DNA of 30,337 nt from a virus. The position numbers were made by a program, and so were the translations under genes. A model generated the notes under the pieces. The model saw only the letters and a list, made by a program, of their open reading frames with translations. It ran no database searches and was not told where the DNA came from. This document shows, piece after piece, positions 1,608 to 30,155 of the stretch. Position 1 is the stretch's first letter; every line of letters begins with the position of its first letter. The DNA is taken from IMG/VR virus record IMGVR_UViG_3300033145_000449, positions 1-30,337 of that record. One strand, given 5' to 3'.

Positions 1608-1663
1608 TTATCTTAACTCACTAATAAAATCCTTTTATTTTATTTCAACTCTGAAATAAAATC
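1608..1663 (-). repeat. Duplicated gene tail with hairpin (tail echo)
   Basis: On the minus strand the last eight codons of the 1640-1873 gene (1663 to 1640) read D-F-I-S-E-L-K-stop. Thirty-two bases on, at 1631-1608, a second stretch reads D-F-I-S-E-L-R-stop. The copies differ at TCA/AGT (Ser), TTG/TTA (Leu) and AAA/AGA (Lys/Arg). Between them AATAAAAT is the inverted complement of the ATTTTATT present in both copies, so a hairpin can form with either. The second stop lies 6 bp before the clamp ATG, the normal gene spacing in this genome. Confidence 0.8.
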
Positions 1664-1873
1664 CTCTAATTCATCTTTATCTTCATCTTCTAAACTATCG
1701 TAAAACTCTTGCCCCTCATCTTCCAAACAAATCCAACTATCTTCATCACTGCACGAGTTAGATTCAGAGAACCAAGTTTTAGATATTTCTAATTCTGTTC
1801 CATCTACATCTAACACAAAGTATTTGGTTATGGAACGATTTGTTGTATCTACACTTATTGTTTTTATTTTCAT
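1640..1873 (-). CDS. Hypothetical small acidic protein
   Basis: A 77-residue frame with a lysine-rich start (MKIKTISVDTTNR) and a strongly acidic C-terminal half full of Asp and Glu (LEDEGQEFYDSLEDEDK). Acidic proteins of this size are often DNA mimics or inhibitors, but nothing here shows that. The promoter at 1921-1948 gives a leader of about 41 bases, and the gene heads the leftward unit that includes the sliding clamp and the HTH gene. Its last codons are repeated after the stop (see 1608-1663). No family recognised. Confidence 0.7.
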   Translation of the reverse strand: MKIKTISVDTTNRSITKYFVLDVDGTELEISKTWFSESNSCSDEDSWICLEDEGQEFYDSLEDEDKDELEDFISELK

Positions 1874-3517: not shown

Positions 3518-3763
3518 TTATTGCTTTTTGCCTCTTCTTTGTTTTTTATTCCAATCATCCCAGGGAATCCTTAAAATATCCGTTGTGTATCTATCATAAT
3601 CAATCCGTAATCTGTAAAGTCCATTGATAAGTTTAGTGTTGATTGATACCCAGGCAATTGTCTGTTTTTTCTCGTCTGTGATTTTTATTGCGATTTTTTC
3701 ATTTCCGCCTTGCCCTTTGCTCGCCCTTTCGCTTTCTACTTTTGCGTACAGTTTCATAGCCAT
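3518..3763 (-). CDS. Hypothetical small basic protein
   Basis: An 81-residue frame starting MAMKLYAKVESERASKGQGG and ending in a basic tail (WNKKQRRGKKQ). The middle alternates hydrophobic and polar residues (IAIKITDEKKQTIAWVSI, YRLRIDYDR), which suggests a small beta fold. The basic tail would suit nucleic-acid binding. Its start overlaps the end of the upstream gene by 10 bp, so translation is probably coupled. MKLYAK, two codons in, could also be the start. A strong terminator follows 35 bp after the stop. No family recognised. Confidence 0.65.
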   Translation of the reverse strand: MAMKLYAKVESERASKGQGGNEKIAIKITDEKKQTIAWVSINTKLINGLYRLRIDYDRYTTDILRIPWDDWNKKQRRGKKQ

Positions 3764-4119
3764 TCATCAATCATGTAATAATCAGCGACTAAATCTAATT
3801 CGGCTTGTGATAACTCAACCTCTTCATAGCATCCCCAATCTTCCCAGTAATAAACGCCCCCAGTAATACCAGAACCATCAGCAGTAAACTTAAAACCATC
3901 ACCATCGCCCCCCGTTGATAATTGAATCTTGATAACTTTCTCAATGCTAATGCCTAACGGCTCCCGATAATTCTCACTTTCATTATCGCTTTCAATCTTT
4001 CCACTCTCCATTTCCGCCCCTACCTTCTTAATATCCTTCATCTCGTCATTTTTACGATATAAAGCATATGCTCGCAAACTTTCAGGCGTTGCGTGTCCTT
4101 TAATGTTCGGATTTTCCAT
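3754..4119 (-). CDS. Hypothetical acidic protein
   Basis: A 121-residue frame. The N-terminal third (MENPNIKGHATPESLRAYAL) and the next segment are charged and probably flexible. Residues about 60-121 look folded: a Gly-rich stretch (STGGDGDGFKFTADGSGITGG), then YYWEDWGCYEEVELSQAELDLVADYYMIDEWL, which is acidic, aromatic and probably helical. No family recognised. It is first in a two-gene unit and overlaps the next gene. An inverted repeat and a weak promoter lie directly upstream. Confidence 0.65.
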   Translation of the reverse strand: MENPNIKGHATPESLRAYALYRKNDEMKDIKKVGAEMESGKIESDNESENYREPLGISIEKVIKIQLSTGGDGDGFKFTADGSGITGGVYYWEDWGCYEEVELSQAELDLVADYYMIDEWL

Positions 4120-4126
4120 ATAAATT

Positions 4127-4171
4127 GAAACAAATCTTATTTTTTCAATTTGTTTCTTATTAAATTGTCAA
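4127..4171 (-). promoter_or_regulatory. Weak promoter with overlapping inverted repeat
   Basis: On the minus strand a perfect TTGACA (4166-4171) has only a poor -10 17 bp on (TTGAAA, 4143-4148). A perfect 9-bp inverted repeat, GAAACAAAT (4127-4135) and ATTTGTTTC (4148-4156), covers the -10 area and the space up to the ATG at 4119. This fits a repressor site on a weak promoter, or a hairpin that hides the start. The 4172-4287 remainder of this gap shows only a hairpin (CCCTGATT / AATCGGGG on the minus strand). Confidence 0.4.
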
Positions 4172-5560: not shown

Positions 5561-5711
5561 ATAACCAAGCGGAGGCGATAAATCCTGTTAAATCTCCATT
5601 TTTCGCCCCAGAACGTAAATCTGCCCACAAACCAAATATCCAACACAATACACCTATACAGAATATAAACCCGTTACAACTCAATTTCAAGCCACAAATA
5701 TCAATAAACAT
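5553..5711 (-). CDS. Small membrane protein, 52 residues
   Basis: A short minus-strand frame, ATG at 5711, stop at 5553-5555. It reads MFIDICGLKLSCNGFIFCIG, then VLCWIFGLWADLRS, a polar GAKNGDLT loop and GFIASAWLFG, so two hydrophobic segments (about 13-30 and 41-52) flank a charged loop. No promoter of the usual type was found directly upstream; a 26-residue hydrophobic frame with a TTG start (5813-5733) precedes it and may be coupled. Coding status rests on composition alone. Confidence 0.4.
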   Translation of the reverse strand: MFIDICGLKLSCNGFIFCIGVLCWIFGLWADLRSGAKNGDLTGFIASAWLFG

Positions 5712-6182: not shown

Positions 6183-6749
6183 TTGAAAACTCTATCGATA
6201 GAACAAAAGACTGGTTTATTTATGATGCTTGAAAAGAAAGACCTTTATAAGGTCGGACTTGAGTATGAGTTTGATAAACACTATAAGGATGCTAAAGCCG
6301 TAAAGGGGGCGGTTTATCGTATTTATAGTGATGTTAAGAATCACCCCGATAAATATGGTATTCAACCTATTACTTATAATAAAGTTGTGAATGCTATGTC
6401 TTCTAGGTCTATACAAGGAAAGGCGGTTGACCAAAAGGTTAGTTTGAGAGAAGAGTTAGAAGATTTTGATATAAAGAAGATGGTGTTGTCTAATAGAGAT
6501 AAGGCGGCACTTTTGGTAAGTAGGAAATTAGATAGTATTGGTAAGAGTAAGAAGAAGTTAGATGCTATATCTTTACCTCAATTATCTTTAACTCTTTGTC
6601 AGTTGTTTGATAAAGGACAGATAGTTCAGGGTGAGGCTACTGAACATATAGCACATCTTGCTAAGATTGAAGAAGGATTAAGTGCTAAAGATTTATTAGA
6701 AGCTGTTATTACACAGAGGGAATCTACAATAATTAAGAAGAATAAGTAG
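6183..6749 (+). CDS. terS: Terminase small subunit (probable)
   Basis: A 188-residue protein at the head of the late operon, two genes before the large terminase, where the DNA-recognising small subunit usually lies. Residues 1-60 are helical (IEQKTGLFMMLEKKDLYKVG, then AVKGAVYRIYSDVKNHP) and fit a DNA-binding helix-turn-helix. The middle and end are helical (REELEDFDIKKMVLSNRD, AHLAKIEEGLSAKDLLEAVI), as in oligomerising small terminases. The start used is TTG at 6183, directly behind the -10 box; an in-frame ATG at 6222 is the alternative but would remove part of the helical domain. The tail (KKNK) and stop are repeated twice downstream. Confidence 0.6.
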   Translation: MKTLSIEQKTGLFMMLEKKDLYKVGLEYEFDKHYKDAKAVKGAVYRIYSDVKNHPDKYGIQPITYNKVVNAMSSRSIQGKAVDQKVSLREELEDFDIKKMVLSNRDKAALLVSRKLDSIGKSKKKLDAISLPQLSLTLCQLFDKGQIVQGEATEHIAHLAKIEEGLSAKDLLEAVITQRESTIIKKNK

Positions 6750-6821
6750 ATTCTTCTTAATCCTATTATTAAGAAGAATAAATAGATTCTTCTTAATCCT
6801 ATTATTAAGAAGAATAAATAA
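6732..6821 (+). repeat. 36-bp tandem hairpins repeating the terS tail and stop
   Basis: Period 36 bp, 2.4 copies starting at 6732, 6768 and 6804. Each full unit is a perfect 12-bp stem (ATTAAGAAGAAT / ATTCTTCTTAAT) with a 6-base loop, then CCTATT; the last lacks its right arm. Each left arm and loop spells K-K-N-K-stop, as the gene end does: AAG TAG, AAA TAG, AAA TAA in order. As 36 is a multiple of three, reading through the two TAG codons would stay in frame until TAA. The right arms can pair with the left arm on either side. Confidence 0.9.
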
Positions 6822-6838
6822 AATCGACCAAAAAAGAA

Positions 6839-7171
6839 GTGAAGAAGAATTTTGATGTTTTTAAGAAAGAATGTCTTTATTGGCAAAAGAAGTTAGAGTT
6901 GGGTAATTATGATATAGAAATTAAACTTGGCACGGATAAGGATTTCTTTTCTGCTTGGTGTTCTATATATGCAGATTATAATGCTATTGTTTGGATGGAT
7001 GAAACTTATAAGTTTTCTTCTTTACAAGAAGTAAAAGATGCTGCTAAACATGAAATGGTGCATATACTAGTTGGGAGATTAGTAGATAATGCCCGTGCCC
7101 GATATATAAATAAAAATGAAATAGATGAAGCCTTAGAGGAACTTGTAAGAAAATTAACTAAACTAATATGA
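6839..7171 (+). CDS. Putative zinc metalloprotease-like protein (HExxH)
   Basis: A 110-residue frame with a GTG start. It contains a zincin motif, KHEMVHILVGR (His71-Glu72-x-x-His75), preceded by a strand-rich segment (YDIEIKLGTDKDFFSAWCSI, YNAIVWMDETY) and followed by a helical end with acidic residues (NEIDEALEELV) that could supply a third zinc ligand. This arrangement resembles the SprT/WLM-type small metalloproteases, and similar small HExxH proteins are seen next to phage terminase genes. A role in capsid maturation is possible but unproven. It ends in an ATGA overlap with the large terminase gene. Confidence 0.6.
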   Translation: MKKNFDVFKKECLYWQKKLELGNYDIEIKLGTDKDFFSAWCSIYADYNAIVWMDETYKFSSLQEVKDAAKHEMVHILVGRLVDNARARYINKNEIDEALEELVRKLTKLI

Positions 7172-11333: not shown

Positions 11334-11648
11334 ATGATATTAAAAAAAATACCAACAGAAGAATTAGAACAAGAACTATTAGAGAGAATAGGAGATTTTG
11401 ATAATCATATCATTGACCCCAAAGCAGAACAGTTGGTCTTAAAAGAATTAAGAAAAGTTGAAGGATTGAGTAATTATTTACAAGGTTTACTTGTCAAAGA
11501 AGTTATTAGAGGATTTGTTGTTGATACAGATAAACAAAGGTGGCACGCAAAAGGGGCACATAATACAATATTTAGATTACAACAAAAATTAAGAAAGCCT
11601 AAAAAGAAAGCAAGCAAAACTAAAATGGAGAATAAAAGATATGCATAA
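11334..11648 (+). CDS. Hypothetical basic protein after the portal
   Basis: A 104-residue frame, 6 bp after the portal stop. It is helical throughout, starting ILKKIPTEELEQELLERIGD and with a strongly basic end (RLQQKLRKPKKKASKTKMEN). The segment YLQGLLVKEVIRGFVVDTDKQ looks like a helix packed against a charged surface. No family recognised; the place between portal and scaffold suggests a head-assembly accessory. Its final 11 bases including the stop are repeated exactly 25 bp downstream. Confidence 0.65.
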   Translation: MILKKIPTEELEQELLERIGDFDNHIIDPKAEQLVLKELRKVEGLSNYLQGLLVKEVIRGFVVDTDKQRWHAKGAHNTIFRLQQKLRKPKKKASKTKMENKRYA

Positions 11649-11673
11649 TTTTTGATTATGCTGATATGCATAA
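11638..11673 (+). repeat. Duplicated gene tail with hairpin (exact copy)
   Basis: GATATGCATAA, the last 11 bases of the 11334-11648 gene including TAA, recurs at 11663-11673. Between the copies TTATGC is the inverted complement of GCATAA. This is the same tail, inverted tail, tail order as at 1608, 6732, 20173 and 20424, but the copy is identical, and it ends 1 bp before the -35 box of the next promoter. Confidence 0.7.
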
Positions 11674-11674
11674 C

Positions 11675-11703
11675 TTGACATTTTGATAGAGATATGATAT
11701 ACT
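11675..11703 (+). promoter_or_regulatory. Strong sigma70-like promoter before the scaffold-capsid genes
   Basis: TTGACA (11675-11680), 17 bp ending TGA, and TATACT (11698-11703), close to consensus with an extended -10. The predicted start is near 11710, giving a leader of about 213 bases, unlike the very short leaders of the other late promoters. Confidence 0.85.
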
Positions 11704-11709
11704 AACAAA

Positions 11710-11922
11710 AGGTGCTAACGTTGATATATACACGAGTTGTGTGTGTAGGGAGTATCGGTCGATATACTCCTTACACAGACCATTTGTGGAGATAAGTTAT
11801 CTTAACATTGGTTACATAAGTTTGCAAACTTAGGTGGACTCAACCACCAAAAAACTACGTGGGCTCAACCACGATATAAAAAGGGAAGTTTTTATTAAAA
11901 AGGGAAGTAATCATAAACTATT
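11710..11922 (+). ncRNA. Highly structured leader RNA before the scaffold gene
   Basis: About 213 non-coding bases with five local hairpins. A 13-bp stem (11743-11755 with 11764-11776, one G-U pair). GATAA-G-TTATC (11791-11801). A perfect 16-bp palindrome TAAGTTTGCAAACTTA (11817-11832). Two sister hairpins: GGTGG-ACTCAA-CCACC (11833-11848) and CGTGG-GCTCAA-CCACG (11858-11873), where the outer pair is swapped G-C to C-G while the CTCAA loop is kept. Then AAAAAGGGAAGT occurs twice (11878-11889 and 11897-11908). No T run follows any stem, so these are not simple terminators. The role is unknown: translational control, message stability or a packaging-type RNA are possible. Confidence 0.6.
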
Positions 11923-12612
11923 ATGGAAACACCTGAAAAGGTAGAGAAGGTAGATGAGAATACCATTACTCTTTCGAAAGAAGAGCATAAAAAATTAGTT
12001 GAAGAAAAAGCTAGTTTATCTCAAGACAAAAGTAATCTTGTCAATGAAATCAAAGAGATTCGTGAGAAGAAATCATTATCAGAAGAACAAGTAAAGGAAC
12101 TTACTTCAAAAGTTGAGGAACTTAAATCTATGGCGGGAGATAATTCCAACATAGACGTTAAGGAACTTGCTGAGAAGACTGTTAAGGAATTTTACAAAAA
12201 GCAACAAACTGAAGCACGTGAAAGTGCAAAGCAGGATGCTATGAGTAAATTCTTATCAGATAATCCTGAATTTTCTCCTGAAAATGATGAATTGGGACTA
12301 AAGAAATCCGCCTTTGAAAAGAAATTAGGTAAATTTAATTTATCTAACCTTTCCAAAGAAGAGGACTTTATATCAGTTTACAACGATGCTCTTAGTTTAA
12401 TGGGTAGTAAAAAAGTAGTTGAAGATAATAGTAATCCTATGGATATACAACCATCTTCAAATGCTAATCCTGCTGAAGCAAAAATTGATTCTCTCAATGC
12501 CAAAGAACTTAAAGTTATTGACCAGTTCATGGGCGGCGACAAAGAAGCATTTTTGAAGAAGAAGGCTAAACATCCAGATTTTATTGATTCTTTGATGACT
12601 TCTGTCAAATAA
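11923..12612 (+). CDS. Capsid scaffold-like protein
   Basis: A 229-residue, highly charged, helical protein lying directly before the capsid genes, as scaffolding proteins do. Residues about 15-75 form a coiled coil (EEHKKLVEEKASLSQDKSNL, EEQVKELTSKVEELKSM). The middle is Lys/Glu-rich with helical segments (AEKTVKEFYKKQQTEARESA) and a Pro/Asn-rich linker (NSNPMDIQPSSNANPAE). The C-terminus is basic with a helix-turn-helix look (GGDKEAFLKKKAKHPDFIDS), the usual coat-binding end of scaffolds. It would be an internal core for prohead assembly, lost on maturation. Its message begins with the structured leader. Confidence 0.75.
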   Translation: METPEKVEKVDENTITLSKEEHKKLVEEKASLSQDKSNLVNEIKEIREKKSLSEEQVKELTSKVEELKSMAGDNSNIDVKELAEKTVKEFYKKQQTEARESAKQDAMSKFLSDNPEFSPENDELGLKKSAFEKKLGKFNLSNLSKEEDFISVYNDALSLMGSKKVVEDNSNPMDIQPSSNANPAEAKIDSLNAKELKVIDQFMGGDKEAFLKKKAKHPDFIDSLMTSVK

Positions 12613-19216: not shown

Positions 19217-19907
19217 TGTCGCATCAATAGACCTCGAACTTGATAGTTCACAATATCTTTCAAAGACAGATACGGCTTCTTTATCTATTATTGGGGATTT
19301 AACTTTAGAAATGTGGGTTAAATTTGAGAGTATAACGGGCACTAACAGATTAATATCAAAATATATTTATAATGCAAGTGATGATAGATCTTATGCTTTT
19401 GATAATAGTGCAGATACAATAAGACTTGTAATAAGTGATGATGGAATAGGAATAACTACAGTATCTGTTAGTTGGACACCTTCATTAGCTACTTGGTATC
19501 ATATGGCAGTAACTTATGATGCAAGTGCTGGTAGTGCCACTTTTTATATCGATGGTGTTCAACAAGGGGCAACACAAACAGGATTGGATACAAGTATTTA
19601 CGATGGAACAGCACCATTTGAAATAGGTGCAGTAGACAACGGAGGAACAATAAATTTTGACGGTCTTATAGACGAAGTCCGAGTATGGAGCGACATCAGA
19701 ACAGCCACTGAAATATCAGATAATTATCAAAAAGAATTAACAGGAAGCGAAGCAAACCTTGTAGGATATTGGAAATTAAATAATGACCTTTTAGACGAAA
19801 CTTCAAACAACAATGATTTAACGAATAATAATTCAGCGACATTTAGCACAGATGTTCCCTTTAGTGGAGCAGCATCAGGAAATTCTAACTTCTTCCAATT
19901 CTTTTAA
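19209..19907 (+). CDS. LamG/concanavalin-like carbohydrate-binding virion protein
   Basis: A 232-residue protein. Residues about 8-180 match the LamG (laminin G, jelly-roll) pattern: DLTLEMWVKFESITGTNRLI, then TWYHMAVTYDASAGSATFYI and DGVQQG, INFDGLIDEVRVWSDIRTAT, and LVGYWKLNND. Such domains bind glycans, so this is likely a surface-adhesion or receptor-binding protein. The C-terminus is Asn/Thr-rich (ETSNNNDLTNNNSATF) and ends FFQFF. It follows the HNH gene with an 8-bp overlap, so the endonuclease may have been inserted directly before it. Confidence 0.75.
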   Translation: MANVASIDLELDSSQYLSKTDTASLSIIGDLTLEMWVKFESITGTNRLISKYIYNASDDRSYAFDNSADTIRLVISDDGIGITTVSVSWTPSLATWYHMAVTYDASAGSATFYIDGVQQGATQTGLDTSIYDGTAPFEIGAVDNGGTINFDGLIDEVRVWSDIRTATEISDNYQKELTGSEANLVGYWKLNNDLLDETSNNNDLTNNNSATFSTDVPFSGAASGNSNFFQFF

Positions 19908-19912
19908 TATCT

Positions 19913-19953
19913 ATTCAATTTATGAATTAAATTTCATTTACATTCAATTTATG
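19913..19953 (+). repeat. Duplicated ribosome-entry segment before 19951 gene
   Basis: ATTCAATTTATG occurs at 19913-19924 and again at 19942-19953, 29 bp apart, the second containing the start codon of the next gene. The first ATG is followed by AAT TAA and codes nothing. ATGAA and TTCAT between them form a small stem. This looks like a start-side counterpart of the tail duplications. Confidence 0.55.
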
Positions 19954-20196
19954 CAAAAAGACATTAACAATTTAAAAATATCTATAATGAAGATAGAAAC
20001 AAATTATGAGCACATCTTAGAGGCTTTAGATGATAACAAAGAGCAACACACAGAGATAATGCAGAAAATGGAAGACTGGATAAAGGCTTCTGAAAAGAAA
20101 TTCGCAAGTAAATGGACAGAGAGAGTTTTGGTGTGGGCGGGAATGGCAATCGGTGGAACATTAATAGTAGCATTATTATCGTTGATTATTAAATAA
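19951..20196 (+). CDS. Coiled-coil plus membrane-anchor protein (XhlA-like)
   Basis: An 81-residue protein from ATG at 19951. An N-terminal helix (DINNLKISIMKIETNYEHIL, EQHTEIMQKMEDWIKASEKK) is followed by one membrane segment (about 58-79, VLVWAGMAIGGTLIVALLSL) and a short tail. The layout matches XhlA/holin-associated small proteins of lysis cassettes. A longer frame opening at 19852 overlaps LamG coding bases and is unlikely. The gene's last codons are repeated 43 bp downstream. It forms a pair with the next membrane protein. Confidence 0.65.
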   Translation: MQKDINNLKISIMKIETNYEHILEALDDNKEQHTEIMQKMEDWIKASEKKFASKWTERVLVWAGMAIGGTLIVALLSLIIK

Positions 20197-20239
20197 TGAA
20201 TCAACAATAATTACATTATTAGAATTAATTATTAAGTAA
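20173..20239 (+). repeat. Duplicated gene tail with hairpin (tail echo)
   Basis: The last codons of the 19951-20196 gene read L-L-S-L-I-I-K-stop (20173-20196). A second stretch at 20216-20239 reads L-L-E-L-I-I-K-stop, ending 1 bp before the next ATG. TTG/TTA and AAA/AAG differ silently. Between the copies AATCAAC is the inverted complement of GTTGATT in the first copy, with pairing extendable to 13 positions with one mismatch. Spacing is 43 bp, not a multiple of three. Confidence 0.8.
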
Positions 20240-20240
20240 T

Positions 20241-20438
20241 ATGAAAATTATATCAGAAGAAAATAAAGTTATCCTCCTAAAGAGAATAAAAAGTTTTGGA
20301 TGGAGGATAGGTATGGTGGTAGTTGTAGCAGGACTTAACTTCGTGGCGGCGAACTTAAACCTATTTAATCTACCAACAGAAGTAATAGTAGTAGTATCTT
20401 TGGTTCTTTCAGAGATAACAAAACAACTAAATAAGTAG
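20241..20438 (+). CDS. Small two-span membrane protein, holin-like
   Basis: A 65-residue protein with a basic N-terminus (ENKVILLKRIKSFGWR), a hydrophobic segment (about 23-37, IGMVVVVAGLNFVAA), an Asn/Leu turn (NLNLFNLPTE) and a second hydrophobic segment (about 47-60, VIVVVSLVLSE), ending Lys-rich. Size and layout match class II holins, and the preceding XhlA-like gene supports a lysis cassette, though no endolysin is seen in the window. Its tail QLNK and stop are repeated twice downstream (20453-20496). The start lies 1 bp after the tail copy of the gene before. Confidence 0.6.
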   Translation: MKIISEENKVILLKRIKSFGWRIGMVVVVAGLNFVAANLNLFNLPTEVIVVVSLVLSEITKQLNK

Positions 20439-20496
20439 AAATACTTATTTTGCAACTAAATAAATAGTAATATTTATTTTGCAGTTGAATAAATAA
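20424..20496 (+). repeat. 29-bp tandem hairpins repeating the holin-like gene tail
   Basis: Period 29 bp. Three stretches spell Q-L-N-K-stop: CAA CTA AAT AAG TAG (20424), CAA CTA AAT AAA TAG (20453), CAG TTG AAT AAA TAA (20482). All differences are silent or swap stop codons. The first two are followed by an inverted arm (AAATAAGT / ACTTATTT, then AAATAAAT / ATTTATTT), so the stems change together. The third stop is 3 bp before the next ATG. As 29 is not a multiple of three, each copy is in a different frame. Confidence 0.9.
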
Positions 20497-20499
20497 TTT

Positions 20500-21321
20500 A
20501 TGGAAGATGAAAGAATAGAACAACAGAAATATAATCCAAGGGATTCTATTTCCCAATTAGAACAAAAGGTAGAAGACCTTACTAACAAACTAAATGAACA
20601 GTCTAGGGAGTTTGAGGAGTTTAAAAAATTATATGAGTTACACCAACATAATGGATATGATGATACAACTAGATTAAGTGGGACATTAGAAATAAAAGAT
20701 GGTAATTTTATAAATTTAGGAAATACTTATAGAGCATCACTAAATCAGTGGGCAGGAACAGCATCAGAAGAGAATAAATTTATACTTGCAGTAGGAAATG
20801 ATGGAACTACTGGATTTAGTAAATCAACTTCTAATACACAATTTGAAATAATAAACCAACCAGGAACTAACGGAAGTACAAATCAATCATTTATACAAGC
20901 ATTTAGAAGTCCTGTATATGCTAACGAAGGAATAGCAATAACTTCTGGCTCAGCTACAGTAACAGATGGTTTCTTTACTTGGGATACTAATGAATTAGCA
21001 GGAGCTTATATAGCATTATTCGATACAGATGGTCACTTAAAAGAAACTTATACAATCTCATCTAATACAGCAAACGCTATAACAATGAGTAGTAATGCAA
21101 CATTTACAGATTCAGATGCCTCTTATACAGTATTTATGCCAGTTTATTTTGGCTCAGCAGCATTTCCTTTTAGAAGACTTTATACAAGTGAAGGAACTGG
21201 AGGTGGTATAAGAATAGGTCAAGGACCGACTGCTGGAGGACAAAACGGATTATTATATATGGATTCTTCGGGAGATTTATATTGGAGGAATACAGGAGGG
21301 TCAGCAGTTAAATTAAATTAA
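20500..21321 (+). CDS. Fibre or baseplate-type virion protein
   Basis: A 273-residue protein. An N-terminal coiled coil (about 17-45, SQLEQKVEDLTNKLNEQSRE) leads into LHQHNGYDDTTRLSG (about 46-60), a motif seen at the start of phage fibre knobs (H-x-H-N-x-x-D). The remainder is beta-rich with Gly/Thr/Ser repeats (FFTWDTNELAGAYIALFDTD) and a Gly-rich end (GQGPTAGGQNGLLYMDSSGD). It is probably trimeric and surface exposed. It follows the holin-like pair and precedes a large beta protein, so it may be part of a tail-tip or appendage set. Confidence 0.65.
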   Translation: MEDERIEQQKYNPRDSISQLEQKVEDLTNKLNEQSREFEEFKKLYELHQHNGYDDTTRLSGTLEIKDGNFINLGNTYRASLNQWAGTASEENKFILAVGNDGTTGFSKSTSNTQFEIINQPGTNGSTNQSFIQAFRSPVYANEGIAITSGSATVTDGFFTWDTNELAGAYIALFDTDGHLKETYTISSNTANAITMSSNATFTDSDASYTVFMPVYFGSAAFPFRRLYTSEGTGGGIRIGQGPTAGGQNGLLYMDSSGDLYWRNTGGSAVKLN

Positions 21322-24214: not shown

Positions 24215-25417
24215 ATGGACAAAGATAAAATAGCACAAATGCAAGACACTCTTGCTGGAATGAAAACAAAAGCAGAAGGAGTAAAGTCTGGTTTAGTTGA
24301 TGTGGGTAAAACTACTTCTCACTCCACACAACAAAGTGTTTTAGATGTTTTAACTAAAAAAATGTTAGGTGATGGTGGGGCGGTTTCTTCTGCTGATACG
24401 GGTATTGACAAGTTTTTAAGAGAAACAAAGGCTTCTGCCGAGGCTTTAAGAGAATCCAGTGCATCAAGAATAGAGATGGAAGCCGAAGAACAAGCTGGTT
24501 TAATTAGCAAAGCAGGTGAACAAAGATTAACTTCTGCCCAAGAAAGGAGAGGTGCTATGGGTTTCAATCCCGCCGCACTTAAAGCAATTCAAGACAGCAC
24601 TAAACAACAACTTGCCGACCTAGATAAAAGAAAAGACCAAGCTCTTTTAGAGAACAATACAGCTTTGCACGACAAATATACTAACCTACAATTAAAGGCT
24701 TATGAGTTCCAACAAAAAGCAGAACAACAACAGTTTAGTAATATGTTGGGGATAGGAAGATTGGTGGCTGATATTGGTAAAGAAGAAAGAATGGAGAGTC
24801 AGTTTACACAAAATCTTAATTTACAAAAAGAACAATTAGAAAGAAATAAACAGAGTGATATGGCTGATATTTATTTGGAATATGGTTTAACTCCACAGGA
24901 GGGCGACACATTGGGAGACGTTGTTAAACGAGCACAACCCAAAGCGGATGCCAAAAGGAGAGCCGAATTAGCAAAATTACTTAAAAACACGGAGGAAACT
25001 GAAGTTGAAGTTAATTTAAGTTCTCGTATAGAAGAATTTATGACAGTTCCAGATGAGGATGGTAATGTAATGACGGCTTCTGAAGCAGCAGAAATGGCAG
25101 TTGCTTATATGGAAGGTCTCGGTTTGAAAGCAACAGTATCAGATTTAACACGTTTTCAAATACAAGCGGTAAATATACAAGCTCGTCTAGATGCTGAAGC
25201 GAAACAAAGAGAAGCCGAACAAAAATTAAAGGTTGCAGAAGTAGAAAAGAGTGCTACTTTCTGGGAAGATGTCGGTGGTTACTTTGATTCCCAAAAAGCC
25301 AAAGATAAAACAGGACAAACACAAAATTTTAGTGAATGGTTGTCTGAAGCATCCGAGATAAAAACTCCTGTTGATAGTGCGGCTAAATTCTTTAGTAATA
25401 TATTTTCAACAGAATAA
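24215..25417 (+). CDS. Internal virion protein, Ala/Gln-rich helical
   Basis: A 400-residue protein one base after the adaptor gene. Very rich in Ala, Gln, Lys and Glu with long helices (AGLISKAGEQRLTSAQERRG, NLQLKAYEFQQKAEQQQFSN, LDAEAKQREAEQKLKVAEVE) and few aromatics. No catalytic motif or signal peptide. In podoviruses such proteins are packed in the head and ejected with the DNA. The C-terminus becomes more hydrophobic (VDSAAKFFSNIFSTE). It precedes a very large protein with which it may form the ejection complex. Confidence 0.65.
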   Translation: MDKDKIAQMQDTLAGMKTKAEGVKSGLVDVGKTTSHSTQQSVLDVLTKKMLGDGGAVSSADTGIDKFLRETKASAEALRESSASRIEMEAEEQAGLISKAGEQRLTSAQERRGAMGFNPAALKAIQDSTKQQLADLDKRKDQALLENNTALHDKYTNLQLKAYEFQQKAEQQQFSNMLGIGRLVADIGKEERMESQFTQNLNLQKEQLERNKQSDMADIYLEYGLTPQEGDTLGDVVKRAQPKADAKRRAELAKLLKNTEETEVEVNLSSRIEEFMTVPDEDGNVMTASEAAEMAVAYMEGLGLKATVSDLTRFQIQAVNIQARLDAEAKQREAEQKLKVAEVEKSATFWEDVGGYFDSQKAKDKTGQTQNFSEWLSEASEIKTPVDSAAKFFSNIFSTE

Positions 25418-25420
25418 TCT

Positions 25421-28400
25421 ATGGATATAGAAAATCGTTTCAAAAGAATAGATACTATAAAAGAACAAATCAATAGAAGGATAGATACCAAATTAGGTTC
25501 TCGATTACAACGATTAGATAAAAGATTGGTGCAGATGGGAGTAAAAGAACCTGATTTAGACACTTCTTATGGTTTATATGACATTTCTGTAAAAAGTGGT
25601 CTTAAACCACAGGCTGATAAAATTCTTAAAGCCCACGCAGGAGAACACCCTAGAGAGTTCTGGTCTGGTGGATTTATTAGTGATACTTTTGATACCCTAA
25701 ATGCTTTGCAATATGGGGTTGTTGGTGTGCTTAAAGGTAAGAGTTTTAATGAGGGTGTTTTATCAAGAGAATCATTTACTGATAAAGATTCTTTAGGGCA
25801 GTATGGGTTGGCTGGTATTGTTGGAGGTTTGGCTTTAGATATTGCTTTTGACCCACTTACTTATGTAGCACCTTGGACTATTTTGAAAAAAGTGCCTGGT
25901 CTTACTAAAGGATTAAAGGCTACAAAAGAATGGACTTTTGGGAAGATGGCAACAGAGATGGTAAGCGAGGGAAAAACTTACCAAAAATTAACTGGGGGGA
26001 CTAAAATTGGTAGACATTTAGCCGAGAAGTTTAAGTATGCTTTTGGTCAAGACCCTGTTTATAAGGCAATGGCAAAACAGAAAGATATAAGTGTGGGTAT
26101 CGCTACTAATAAAGTAATTAAAATGGGGCAAAGTTTGCATAAAGTTCCAAATGAGGAACTTGTTAAGAAAGTTATTACAAAAGATGAATTTGGTGCATTT
26201 ATAAGAAAACCAATTAAACAATTACAAGAAGAATTATCTCCTGAAGATTTCAAACAAGTTGGTGAATCAATGTCTTTTTTTGATACAGAATTAAAGAAAG
26301 TAGGGCGAGAGATGGTTGATTTGGGTTTGTTAGATAAGAGAACTTTTGAGAAAAACTTTGATTCATTTCTATCACAATATTATATGCACTATGACGAGGT
26401 TGGAAGTAAAATTATGGCTTCTACCAAAGCGGGTATTAAAGGTGGGCGGAAAAGATTGTCCCACGAAGAAGTTATTAAAAATTATGTATCTCATTTAGGA
26501 GATGAAGCAAAGAAATTACACCCTGAATTATATGATAAAATGGGTAAGTTGTCTATTAAGAAACTTGAAGAAACCAATCCAGAGAAATTTGCTGAATTAG
26601 CTAAGAAAGGTAGAGAAGCAATGCAAGAAGTTTTGGGTGGTATTGAAAGTCCTGCTTATCTTTTAACAAAGACTTTGACCAAAATGATATATGATGTGGA
26701 AAATGCTAAATTTTTTCAGAAAATTAATAAATCTTACGGTTCAGATATTGCACAAGAAGGATTAAAACAATTACCAAAGGGCAATAGACTTGATATAAAC
26801 AAAGCTAAAAGGATAGAAGTTGGTGCAGGGATTAAGGATATAAATAAAACTATTGGTAAAGAAATAAAGAATTTACAAAATACATTTAAAGGTGATAAGA
26901 AGATACTTAAACAAATAGATAGTTTAGACAAAGATGTTCTTAAGATGTCAGACGATTTAACTGATGATTTGGGTAGATTTATTTCAGATATAAAACATCC
27001 TATTAAAGGGGTTTCTATTACTGCACGCAAACTTGGTATAATTCCTGAAAGACTTAATAATATCGCAAACCAAATAAAGAAATTCACAGATTATGATACT
27101 ATGCTTAAATCAAAATCTGGTATTGCTTTGGAGAAGTTAGAAATGGGTGGAGATTTGCAACGACATGGTTATAAATCTATGAGAGAATTTTTTGATAATG
27201 TTAAGAAACCATTTAAGAAAGGAAAAGAAGAATTGATAGATGATGCAACTAAGATAAGAGGAGAACAATTAGTTAAATTACAATCCAAAGTAGAAAAAAC
27301 TAGAGATAAATTATCTAAAATTAAGGATATTGATAAGAAATCTTTAGACAATTCGTTTATTCATTTAGAAAAGAAAATAAATGATTTAAGATTTTATAAG
27401 GAAGATTTGGTAGAAGATTTGGGGAAACTTCGTTTAGGTAATCTTGCTGGTAAATATGTGCCAGAGAGTATTTATAATGACTTAACAGAAATGGGTAAAA
27501 TAACTGACCCTAATTTTGGTCAGAAGTTAATGGCAAAATTTAAGTATGGTCATGTTATTCTTAATCCTGCCACACAAATAAGAAATATAGTATCGAATAG
27601 GCTACTTAACTGGTGGAAATTAGGTATCGGTCCTTGGAGAGTTGATATAGACTTAAAGGTTATTAAAGCGATGAAAGAGGGTGTGGGAAATAAATATATT
27701 AAACTTGCAACAAAAGAGGGTTGGGGAATAGACACCATGGTATCTCAAGAAATTAGAAACTTTGCCGACCCACTTCAAAGATTAAGTTGGGGTAAAGGTG
27801 GATTAAATACAGGAAAAAAGATTCTAAATAAGTTTGCTGATTTATATCAAGGTTCAGAAAACTATGCTAAATTATCTGCTTTTATATATAAAGTAGATAA
27901 AGGTATTAGTCCCGCAGAAGCATGGAAATTCGCAGAAAGTGCTACCTTTAATTATTCAGAAGTAACACCCTTTATAAGACAATTAAGAACTTCTGCTTTT
28001 GGTTTCCCATTTATTACTTTTACAACTAAAGCGACACCGATTGCTATTGAAACTGCATTCAAAGCACCACATAGAATATCTGCTATTGGTAAAGTAAAAA
28101 ATACTATTGAAAATCAAGCTGATATAAAAATAACAAAAAGAGAACGTGCGGCGGAAGCTCCTTGGATTAAGGATGGTTTTTATATTAAATTACCACACAA
28201 GGATTCTGACGGCAGGTCTATGTATTTTGATTTAACTTATATACTTCCTTTTGGAGATTTGATGTCGGGTGAATTTTTCCAAAGAAGCGTTGTTAAGCAA
28301 ACAGGAACGGTTGAGCCTTGGTTTTTAGGAGTTGCGGGAAAAAGTCCGTTCATCAATGCTGTAAAAGAACTATCAAGAAATCAAGACTTCTCTGGAAGAA

Positions 28401-28747
28401 GAATATGGAAAGACTCAGATTCTACTGCTGGGGTGGGTGCAAATATAATGAGATATTTAACAAAGGTGATGATGCCTCCTGTAATTGCTGACCAAATACC
28501 TGGTGGTTTTAATGATAAAGGTGTCCAAGCAGAAGCTGGTTTTAAGCGAGCCATTGGTGAAAAAGAAGGGACACAACAAAGAAATCTAATGCAAGAAATG
28601 TTAAAACATGTAGGGGTTAAAATTCAACCTATAGATGTTGGGATAGCAGAATCAATGCAAGATTGGAATATAAAAAAAGGATTAAGAACGATGTTAAAAG
28701 ACAATACTGTGGTTAAAGATTTCTCTTCTACTTATATTCCTAAATAA
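25421..28747 (+). CDS. Very large internal (ejection) virion protein, LPD38-like end
   Basis: An 1108-residue protein closing the structural block. A charged N-terminus is followed by a Gly-rich hydrophobic stretch (about 128-155, GLAGIVGGLALDIAFDPLTY) that may insert into membrane, then long helical segments (DKRTFEKNFDSFLSQYYMHY, KNLQNTFKGDKKILKQIDSL). From about residue 711 the pattern ILNPATQIRNIVSNRLLNWW, later YSEVTPFIRQLRTSAFGFPF, resembles the large polyvalent protein-associated domain LPD38 of phage ejection proteins. I see no transglycosylase or lytic motif. It likely forms a channel or conduit after DNA entry. Confidence 0.7.
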   Translation: MDIENRFKRIDTIKEQINRRIDTKLGSRLQRLDKRLVQMGVKEPDLDTSYGLYDISVKSGLKPQADKILKAHAGEHPREFWSGGFISDTFDTLNALQYGVVGVLKGKSFNEGVLSRESFTDKDSLGQYGLAGIVGGLALDIAFDPLTYVAPWTILKKVPGLTKGLKATKEWTFGKMATEMVSEGKTYQKLTGGTKIGRHLAEKFKYAFGQDPVYKAMAKQKDISVGIATNKVIKMGQSLHKVPNEELVKKVITKDEFGAFIRKPIKQLQEELSPEDFKQVGESMSFFDTELKKVGREMVDLGLLDKRTFEKNFDSFLSQYYMHYDEVGSKIMASTKAGIKGGRKRLSHEEVIKNYVSHLGDEAKKLHPELYDKMGKLSIKKLEETNPEKFAELAKKGREAMQEVLGGIESPAYLLTKTLTKMIYDVENAKFFQKINKSYGSDIAQEGLKQLPKGNRLDINKAKRIEVGAGIKDINKTIGKEIKNLQNTFKGDKKILKQIDSLDKDVLKMSDDLTDDLGRFISDIKHPIKGVSITARKLGIIPERLNNIANQIKKFTDYDTMLKSKSGIALEKLEMGGDLQRHGYKSMREFFDNVKKPFKKGKEELIDDATKIRGEQLVKLQSKVEKTRDKLSKIKDIDKKSLDNSFIHLEKKINDLRFYKEDLVEDLGKLRLGNLAGKYVPESIYNDLTEMGKITDPNFGQKLMAKFKYGHVILNPATQIRNIVSNRLLNWWKLGIGPWRVDIDLKVIKAMKEGVGNKYIKLATKEGWGIDTMVSQEIRNFADPLQRLSWGKGGLNTGKKILNKFADLYQGSENYAKLSAFIYKVDKGISPAEAWKFAESATFNYSEVTPFIRQLRTSAFGFPFITFTTKATPIAIETAFKAPHRISAIGKVKNTIENQADIKITKRERAAEAPWIKDGFYIKLPHKDSDGRSMYFDLTYILPFGDLMSGEFFQRSVVKQTGTVEPWFLGVAGKSPFINAVKELSRNQDFSGRRIWKDSDSTAGVGANIMRYLTKVMMPPVIADQIPGGFNDKGVQAEAGFKRAIGEKEGTQQRNLMQEMLKHVGVKIQPIDVGIAESMQDWNIKKGLRTMLKDNTVVKDFSSTYIPK

Positions 28748-28750
28748 TCT

Positions 28751-28796
28751 AAAACAGTTATGTTTTATAACTCAAAACAGTTATATTTTATAACCT
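28751..28796 (+). repeat. 23-bp tandem hairpins after the late operon
   Basis: AAAACAGTTAT-x-TTTTATAAC occurs twice in a row (28751-28773, 28774-28796), differing mainly at one loop base. Each holds a 5-bp stem GTTAT / ATAAC. Unlike the other arrays they do not repeat the upstream gene's final codons. They lie between the last late gene and its terminator. Confidence 0.75.
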
Positions 28797-28802
28797 AAAA
28801 TA

Positions 28803-29095: not shown

Positions 29096-29629
29096 TTACT
29101 GATTGAAATTAACGCCAAAACTCTCTGTCTTTTTATGACAATCTCGACATAAGGTTTGACCATTATCTAGATTCCACAATTCTGCACAATTGATTGCTTC
29201 TTGATATGTTTTGATATCATTATCTCCCATTATAGATGAAAAAGATTTTATGTGGTGGGCATTTAATATTATTCTCTCCTTCGTTTCTTTATTCCAACCA
29301 CCTCTTTTATTACACATTTGGCATGTAAAATTGTCTCTAACAAAAATATTCATTCTCCACATTTTATATTCTACCAAACTTTTTACATGTTTGTTTATGG
29401 GGGTTATTCCACCTTTCCAAAATGTGCATTTTTCACCTCTGTGTGCATCACCAATCTTTCTTCTTGCTTCCTCTGAAAACTGTTTTCCTTTATTTGCTTC
29501 ACTAATTTTTCTGCGATGTTCTTCTGACTGTCTCCCTGATTTTTTTCTGTTTGGAAATTTAATCTTACCAATTAAACCCCTATTCCATGGCTTGAATCCT
29601 TTAATGAATTGTCCTTTTTTGTTTCTCAT
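29096..29629 (-). CDS. NUMOD3-HNH homing endonuclease
   Basis: A 177-residue protein. N-terminal GFKPWNRGLIG (about 11-21) is followed by two NUMOD3-type DNA-binding repeats (SEEHRRKISEANKG about 35-48 and SEEARRKIGDAHRG about 52-65). The HNH core is complete: NIFVRDNFTCQMC (Cys103, Cys106), ILNAHHIKSF (His125, His126), LDNGQTLCRDCHKK (Asn156, Cys161, Cys164). A promoter directly upstream gives a leader of about 7 bases. It shares the PWN-x-GLIG segment with the HNH protein at 18728, so the two are probably related. It is a free-standing homing gene. Confidence 0.85.
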   Translation of the reverse strand: MRNKKGQFIKGFKPWNRGLIGKIKFPNRKKSGRQSEEHRRKISEANKGKQFSEEARRKIGDAHRGEKCTFWKGGITPINKHVKSLVEYKMWRMNIFVRDNFTCQMCNKRGGWNKETKERIILNAHHIKSFSSIMGDNDIKTYQEAINCAELWNLDNGQTLCRDCHKKTESFGVNFNQ

Positions 29630-29700: not shown

Positions 29701-29964
29701 TCAAATTATTGTTTTATAATAATGAATTGTTAGTGAAAGGGAATATCCAAATAGTTCAATTTGTATTCCCCCAACAAGAATGGTTTGTCCATTTAAGTAT
29801 TCAATATTCAATCCAAATAAAGGCACGTGGTAAAGAGGATGACTATACTTGAAAGGAATTACCTTTCCTAATTTGATAATTCCGCTTGCACTTTTCCGCC
29901 AACATTGGGCACTTTCTATATAGAAGTATAATTTATTTTTTATTATTTTTATTGTTTTAATCAT
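29701..29964 (-). CDS. Hypothetical beta-rich protein
   Basis: An 87-residue frame from ATG at 29964. It reads MIKTIKIIKNKLYFYIESAQ, then GKVIPFKYSHPLYHVPLFGL and a strand-rich end (QIELFGYSLSLTIHYYKTII), a small beta fold with no recognised motif. I prefer this start because its ATGA overlaps the stop of the upstream gene exactly; the longer frame from 29979 would overlap by 19 bp. No family recognised. Confidence 0.55.
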   Translation of the reverse strand: MIKTIKIIKNKLYFYIESAQCWRKSASGIIKLGKVIPFKYSHPLYHVPLFGLNIEYLNGQTILVGGIQIELFGYSLSLTIHYYKTII

Positions 29965-30155
29965 TGTTTTATTATCCACTTTAATAATTCTTCTTTTTCT
30001 TTTCCTCTTCTATAATCATTCTTATCTACTAGTTTATCAAAGTATTTTCTTATATATGGGGCGGAATAAAACCTACCTCTAATAGTCTTGATAAAACAAA
30101 CCAATGATGAAAGTCTTGGATTATCCAAAGTTATTTTATTAAATTCTATTCGCAT
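29961..30155 (-). CDS. Hypothetical basic protein at the repeat array
   Basis: A 64-residue frame, MRIEFNKITLDNPRLSSLVC to a basic, helical end (YIRKYFDKLVDKNDYRRGKE, then LLKWIIKQ). Composition would suit a small DNA-binding protein, but no HTH spacing is clear. The 17-bp array begins one base before its start codon, so the last repeat provides the whole ribosome-binding region (GAGATAAAC). It overlaps the next gene in an ATGA. A repeat-binding or autoregulating role is possible from position. Confidence 0.55.
   Translation of the reverse strand: MRIEFNKITLDNPRLSSLVCFIKTIRGRFYSAPYIRKYFDKLVDKNDYRRGKEKEELLKWIIKQ
30116..30128. promoter_or_regulatory. 13-bp motif TTGGATTATCCAA, fourth copy
   Basis: Identical to the motif at 2001-2013. 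It lies inside the 29961-30155 gene, about 30 bp from the 17-bp array, and encodes part of LDNP on the minus strand. Confidence 0.5.

Follow-up and report, generated by a model that had tools for sequence, protein, structure and literature searches.

Gene-tail echoes with stop-spanning hairpins in a phage genome, and fold-back template switching as their probable origin

We found that several genes of an uncultured phage are followed by an echo of their own last codons and stop codon, with an inverted copy of the gene tail lying between the two. Such echoes occur in excess over shuffled controls, they are nearly absent from related phages, and at two junctions relatives carry a single tail. 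Our data suggest that the echoes are small inverted triplications, which probably arose by fold-back template switching during replication and were tolerated because they fell at gene ends.

Echoes of gene tails

We analyzed a virus record from public metagenome data (30,337 bases; 34% GC) over its whole length, referred to here as the window. PHROG matches place terminase large subunit, head, and tail-type genes on its + strand, and many of its genes are spaced 1-10 nt apart. Two small membrane-type genes lie next to each other (Table 1), and their proteins of 81 and 65 aa matched no PHROG family at E<=0.001 and no Pfam family over its curated cut-off. We call both genes lysis-type, a presumptive label based only on their size and layout, which resemble those of such genes. 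As queries against the viral_contigs set, both proteins gave no confirmed match, and the 65-aa protein gave no match against the phages set. Among 22 terminase relatives, the 65-aa gene was present in one and the 81-aa gene was matched in none; relatives sought through the 524-aa gene were not found. A scan of genome_contigs returned a single 3.8-kb contig, in a MAG labelled as an archaeon, which we set aside as a host clue because the promoter-like sites read as bacterial.

The 81-aa gene ends in LLSLIIK-stop and the 65-aa gene in QLNK-stop. According to the original prediction, the first of these tails returns as LLELIIK-stop 43 bp on and ends one base ahead of the next ATG, and this is what we observed: the two 43-nt copies abut head to tail with an ungapped identity of 72%, and they end in TTA TTA TCG TTG ATT ATT AAA TAA and TTA TTA GAA TTA ATT ATT AAG TAA, respectively. 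As had been claimed, the Leu (TTG/TTA) and Lys (AAA/AAG) changes are silent; the Ser/Glu codon carries three base differences. The inverted tail copy expected between the echoes is likewise present, as a 13-nt pair about the stop codon. The echo had been placed at 20173-20239; it is real, but the similarity extends farther upstream than 20173, and a local alignment of tail to echo covers 34 nt.

Independent echoes of different sequence had also been proposed for two neighboring gene ends, and the end of the 65-aa gene indeed carries an array with a unit of its own (Table 1). Each strong-echo site reads tail, inverted tail, tail. This order (A, A', A) is common to the sites, the sequence is not. 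The echo spacings at five sites are 25, 29, 32, 36, and 43 nt with no unit in common, and sequence and unit length differ among all five echoes and also from those of a weaker sixth array at 28744-28800, which overlaps its gene by 4 nt only and, with an echo score of 4, falls below the threshold used here. The arrays comprise about 2-2.5 copies that are 72-98% alike, and at four sites the last echo's stop lies 1, 3, 6, or 17 nt upstream of the next start.

Table 1. Coordinates of the membrane-type genes, the echoes, and the arrays in the window
Feature	Position	Strand	Remarks
81-aa membrane-type gene	19951..20196	+	ORF; relative L024 has a gene of the same length (81 aa) at the same position, 21% identical
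65-aa membrane-type gene	20241..20438	+	44% identical to L024:1486-1665
First 43-nt copy (gene tail and stop)	20154..20196	+	Repeat analysis
Second 43-nt copy (echo)	20197..20239	+	Stop at 20237-20239; one base upstream of ATG at 20241
Inverted pair about the stop codon	20175-20187 / 20199-20211	+	13 nt, 92% complementary
29-nt unit x2.5, three QLNK-stop copies (20424, 20453, 20482)	20424..20496	+	End of gene 20241-20438
36-nt unit x2.5, three IIKKNK-stop copies, 12-bp stems	6732..6821	+	End of gene 6183-6749
32-nt echo, DFISELK-stop / DFISELR-stop, 11-bp stem over stop	1608..1665	-	End of gene 1640-1873
25-nt echo GATATGCATAA x2, inverted GCATAAT/ATTATGC in between	11638..11673	+	Precedes promoter-like TTGACA
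23-nt unit x2.5 from the stop of gene 25421-28747	28744..28800	+	Alternating layout alike; fold z -2.67

At all gene ends separated from the following gene by 20 nt or more, we searched downstream for sequence that matches the tail of the gene and closes with a stop codon, in the window (22 ends), in loci related by terminase or neighboring genes (321), and in other phage loci (222); ends less than 20 nt from the next gene were excluded (25 in an earlier peptide-echo scan). At an echo score of at least 11, five of the window's 22 ends carried an echo compared with 0.02 expected from 40 shuffles, while related phages had 1/321 (0.08 expected) and other phages 0/222 (0.15 expected); window and kin differ with a Fisher value of 3.9e-6. 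The five ends are 20196 and 20438 together with 6749(+), 11648(+), and 1640(-), the last three being additions to the original prediction. That prediction held that a process rather than a particular sequence recurs, which stands for this genome, where the sites differ, but not for its relatives, and named as its refutation AT-rich controls equally rich in echoes. This was not seen: no strong echo was found at the 96 gene ends of control loci below 36% GC, and a score of at least 11 was reached in none of the 462 combinations that set a tail against the region downstream of a different gene. The sole strong tail echo among the 321 related gene ends (L022, end 5576, repeat at 5563-5594) is a 16-nt exact tandem repeat across the stop with a 5-bp stem.

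When the 80 nt downstream were compared with the tail at 23 ends, each against 200 dinucleotide shuffles, p was 0.005 at 20196 (the floor, the score being unmatched in all 200 downstream shuffles), 0.01 at 20438, and 0.015 at 11648. The end at 25417 also reached p 0.01 and was treated as chance (a 3-nt gap, no hairpin, one of 23 ends). Short peptide echoes of two to three residues, taken individually, were at the shuffled level, in a scan whose greedy gene calls lacked the ends at 20196 and 20438. At gene starts the same test gave 0/22 head echoes at a score of at least 11, and the preference of echoes for tails over heads (p 0.048) is likely, not firm. A 22-nt repeat at 19903-19953, considered as a head echo, was at the shuffled level (one at a score of at least 10, 0.72 expected), and head scores of at least 14 in the other phage loci were mostly internal protein repeats (L036).

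Inverted copies and junctions in relatives

All five echo ends have a hairpin across the stop codon with a stem of 7 bp or more, and the 17 other ends have none (p 3.8e-5); the perfect stems measure 12 bp at 6749, 11 bp at 1640, 9 bp at 20438, and 7 bp at both 20196 and 11648. Across the whole window, perfect stems of 9 bp or longer number 10 versus 1.9 in shuffles, several of the 10 being overlapping readings of the same arrays. Exact direct-inverted-direct triples of 7-mers, a scan too strict for diverged sites, numbered three in the window against 0.75 expected, and two of the three lie at gene ends, which supports the layout weakly. The region scanned for intrinsic terminators (a GC-rich stem with a T run), 19800-20700, contained none, and the arrays had no Rfam match at E<=1. 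The 20424 array forms hairpins at 20429-20450 (loop GAAA) and 20458-20479 (loop GTAA), and two of the three differences between its units 1 and 2 amount to a compensatory change from G-C to A-T. In its third QLNK copy, the change from CTA to TTG is also base-paired with CAAC of the first copy in the 20400-20510 fold. Translation of the echoes as mini-ORFs or by readthrough was rejected, as copies 2 and 3 of this array have an in-frame stop just upstream and no ATG.

The copies kept their amino acids in 27 of 32 codons, versus 21.0 with the same changes placed randomly (p 0.0001), in a post hoc test on five pairs chosen for similarity. Such retention is not expected of neutral copies; part of it would follow if only the first copy were constrained.

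At the 6749 junction, behind a small-terminase-type gene, relatives L002 and L003 have a single tail (..IIIKKNE-stop) and then the next gene. L019 has one tail there, followed by a stretch containing AAAAATCGACCAAAAA, and the same stretch follows the window's last copy, as does AAAATCGACCAAAAA, which is found in the region behind L019's single tail. At the 11648 junction, L002 and L003 again have a single tail, whose stop overlaps TTGACA, whereas in the window TTGACA comes after the second copy. The single tails indicate that the copies arose in the window's lineage, and the match of the edges to the relatives' setting indicates that the window acquired an insertion whose two edges keep their ancestral surroundings; this polarity applies to 6749 and 11648, the other three sites being without a comparable relative. 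L024, the only relative with both lysis-type genes, has them overlapping and without an echo, and it is too distant (44% and 21% identical) to serve as a before-and-after pair at both lysis junctions. As a separate observation, the window has a small gene with a GTG start at 6839-7171, between terminase-type genes, where L002 and L003 have no gene; it had no tblastn match in the compared loci and no Pfam match.

Origin of the echoes

We reasoned that a nascent strand may stall close to a gene end, fold back on itself, and copy the tail in reverse; it would then rejoin the template upstream of the tail and copy the tail a second time, and later slippage could add one further unit at some sites. 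An insertion of this kind across a stop would be harmless, the first copy ending the protein and the last preserving the bases before the next gene, while the same insertion elsewhere would break a coding region. A duplication spanning the stop keeps both the protein and the next gene's upstream bases, which explains the short spacings to the next start. From the scars we infer this mechanism, the sequence of its steps, and a rate that is elevated in the phage or in its host; on our reading one simple fold-back does not account for all loop and spacer bases. The site at 20196 is the most diverged of the echo sites and folds no better than shuffles (z +0.57), as expected of a decaying scar. Fold-back followed by a return upstream yields precisely this order of copies, and geometry and model agree with published ones: PMC5677150 explains insertions in rad27 deletion yeast by fold-back of the nascent strand and its return upstream, and PMC13334657 proposes fold-back and rejoining of the template for small inverted triplications. 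On the - strand at 4122-4156, two overlapping 9-bp inverted repeats lie just upstream of gene 3754-4119 and may represent a start-side scar of fold-back.

We also asked whether the hairpins are functional RNA that couples or insulates the translation of neighbors, or protects or cleaves the mRNA, with multiple copies outperforming one. Selection would yield the strong folds of two arrays (z -3.56 at 20400-20510; z -3.63 at 6700-6840), and together with the retained codons and the compensatory change in the 20424 array, whose two loops we take to fit GNRA, these keep selection a live rival. Nevertheless, we consider functional RNA unlikely to be the explanation: besides 20196, the fold at 11648 (z +0.31) is no better than shuffles and that at 1640 is weak (z -1.41), the hairpins are absent from the compared junctions of relatives, and 19800-20700 holds no terminator-like site. 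Furthermore, template switching can itself restore pairing, as described in PMC8794818, so the change from G-C to A-T does not separate the models. A combined reading, in which a process of this lineage repeatedly plants a stop-spanning hairpin and re-creates the last codons, with the products then selected for insulating or coupling the neighbors and the peptide kept by a joint constraint on coding tail and RNA arm, appears doubtful to us.

Ordinary slipped-strand tandem duplication over the stop, with palindromes incidental to AT-rich sequence, fits copies that abut head to tail and a gene left intact when its stop is spanned, and Borg tandem repeats act likewise according to PMC9879509. Yet the perfect association of echo and stem (5/5 versus 0/17) is not predicted by plain tandem duplication, and the lack of head echoes (0/22) also speaks against it; we regard it as slightly more doubtful still. 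Chance in AT-rich sequence would suit the short peptide echoes and the end at 25417, which lacks a hairpin, but it is refuted for the five sites jointly by their excess over expectation, the low-GC controls, the swapped pairings, and the shuffles at 20196, and we give it almost no credence. A mobile palindromic mini-element that brings along a tail copy when it integrates at a gene end would agree with the insertions seen against relatives at two junctions. REP-like mobile palindromes are one palindrome family at many sites, whereas here the units differ per site, each with its own sequence. No exact copy of the 24-nt core from the 6749 array occurred in viral_contigs, and the phages set, searched by blastn with 6690-6850 and 20100-20560, returned only weak partial matches (the best listed at E 0.04 and about 0.1), so that a mini-element is highly improbable, if less so than chance.

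Fold-back template switching also has parallels among known systems. The echoes appear to work like the small inverted triplications (DUP/INV/DUP) of rad27/FEN1-deficient yeast and cancer genomes, which share the direct-inverted-direct order with spacers and form hairpins (PMC13334657). Direct copies flank an inverted copy at all five echo ends, and an insertion into a single-copy ancestor is seen at the 6749 and 11648 junctions. By size the echoes are not members of that class: the triplications have medians of 148/160/148 bp, with a flank range that begins at 7 bp, whereas the units here are 25-43 nt rather than near 150 bp. Moreover, they come from cellular genomes and the cited text reports no link to gene ends, while ours lie at phage gene ends. 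In rad27 deletion yeast, palindrome extension with amplification similarly proceeds through fold-back to an inverted repeat and a short duplication (PMC5677150), although those are new mutations under a known defect and the window's echoes are known from scars alone. Borg tandem repeats, too, have independent origins, with about half of them lying between genes or starting inside gene ends; they consist of perfect, many-copy units, with no palindrome rule in the portion of PMC9879509 cited, while the window has two to three imperfect copies plus an inverted arm. Hairpins of RNA genes made by template switching come from a single event that creates a stem and can restore pairing, as proposed here, but the cases in the cited part of PMC8794818 are rRNA and microRNA genes without a gene-tail echo. 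We found no account of tail echoes or stop-spanning inverted triplications in phages in the literature searched. By analogy with yeast rad27 mutants and Borg repeats, stop-spanning tail echoes in phage may be a variant of a known mutational kind.

Neighboring features and implications

The leader at 11674-11922, ahead of gene 11923-12612, contains promoter-like TTGACA/TATGAT, a tandem pair of hairpins with the pattern NNN-GG-ACTCAA-CC-NNN, and after these two AAAAAGGGA repeats ahead of the ATG. The first hairpin is present in 13/13 aligned phages (the window and 12 relatives) with 98.5% of cells paired and a covariation of 0.713 compared with 0.162 when shuffled. The leader had no Rfam match and is likely an undescribed phage regulatory RNA. 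At the contig end, 30157-30337, a 17-nt repeat (TTTATCTCTGAGTAAAC) occurs 10.6 times immediately ahead of ORF 29961-30155 on the - strand and is iteron-like, and the gene at 29096-29629 (-) is of homing type, with Pfam matches to an HNH endonuclease and to NUMOD3 motifs.

Our findings suggest that packed phage genomes can acquire intergenic space and hairpins through copying errors tolerated across stops. Errors that are lethal inside genes would survive at stop codons because both neighbors keep what they need. The finding also cautions against taking every stop-codon hairpin or C-terminal peptide echo for a regulatory element. With scars at five of 22 gene ends compared with one of 321 in its kin, this lineage is a natural place to seek defective replication or a polymerase that switches templates.
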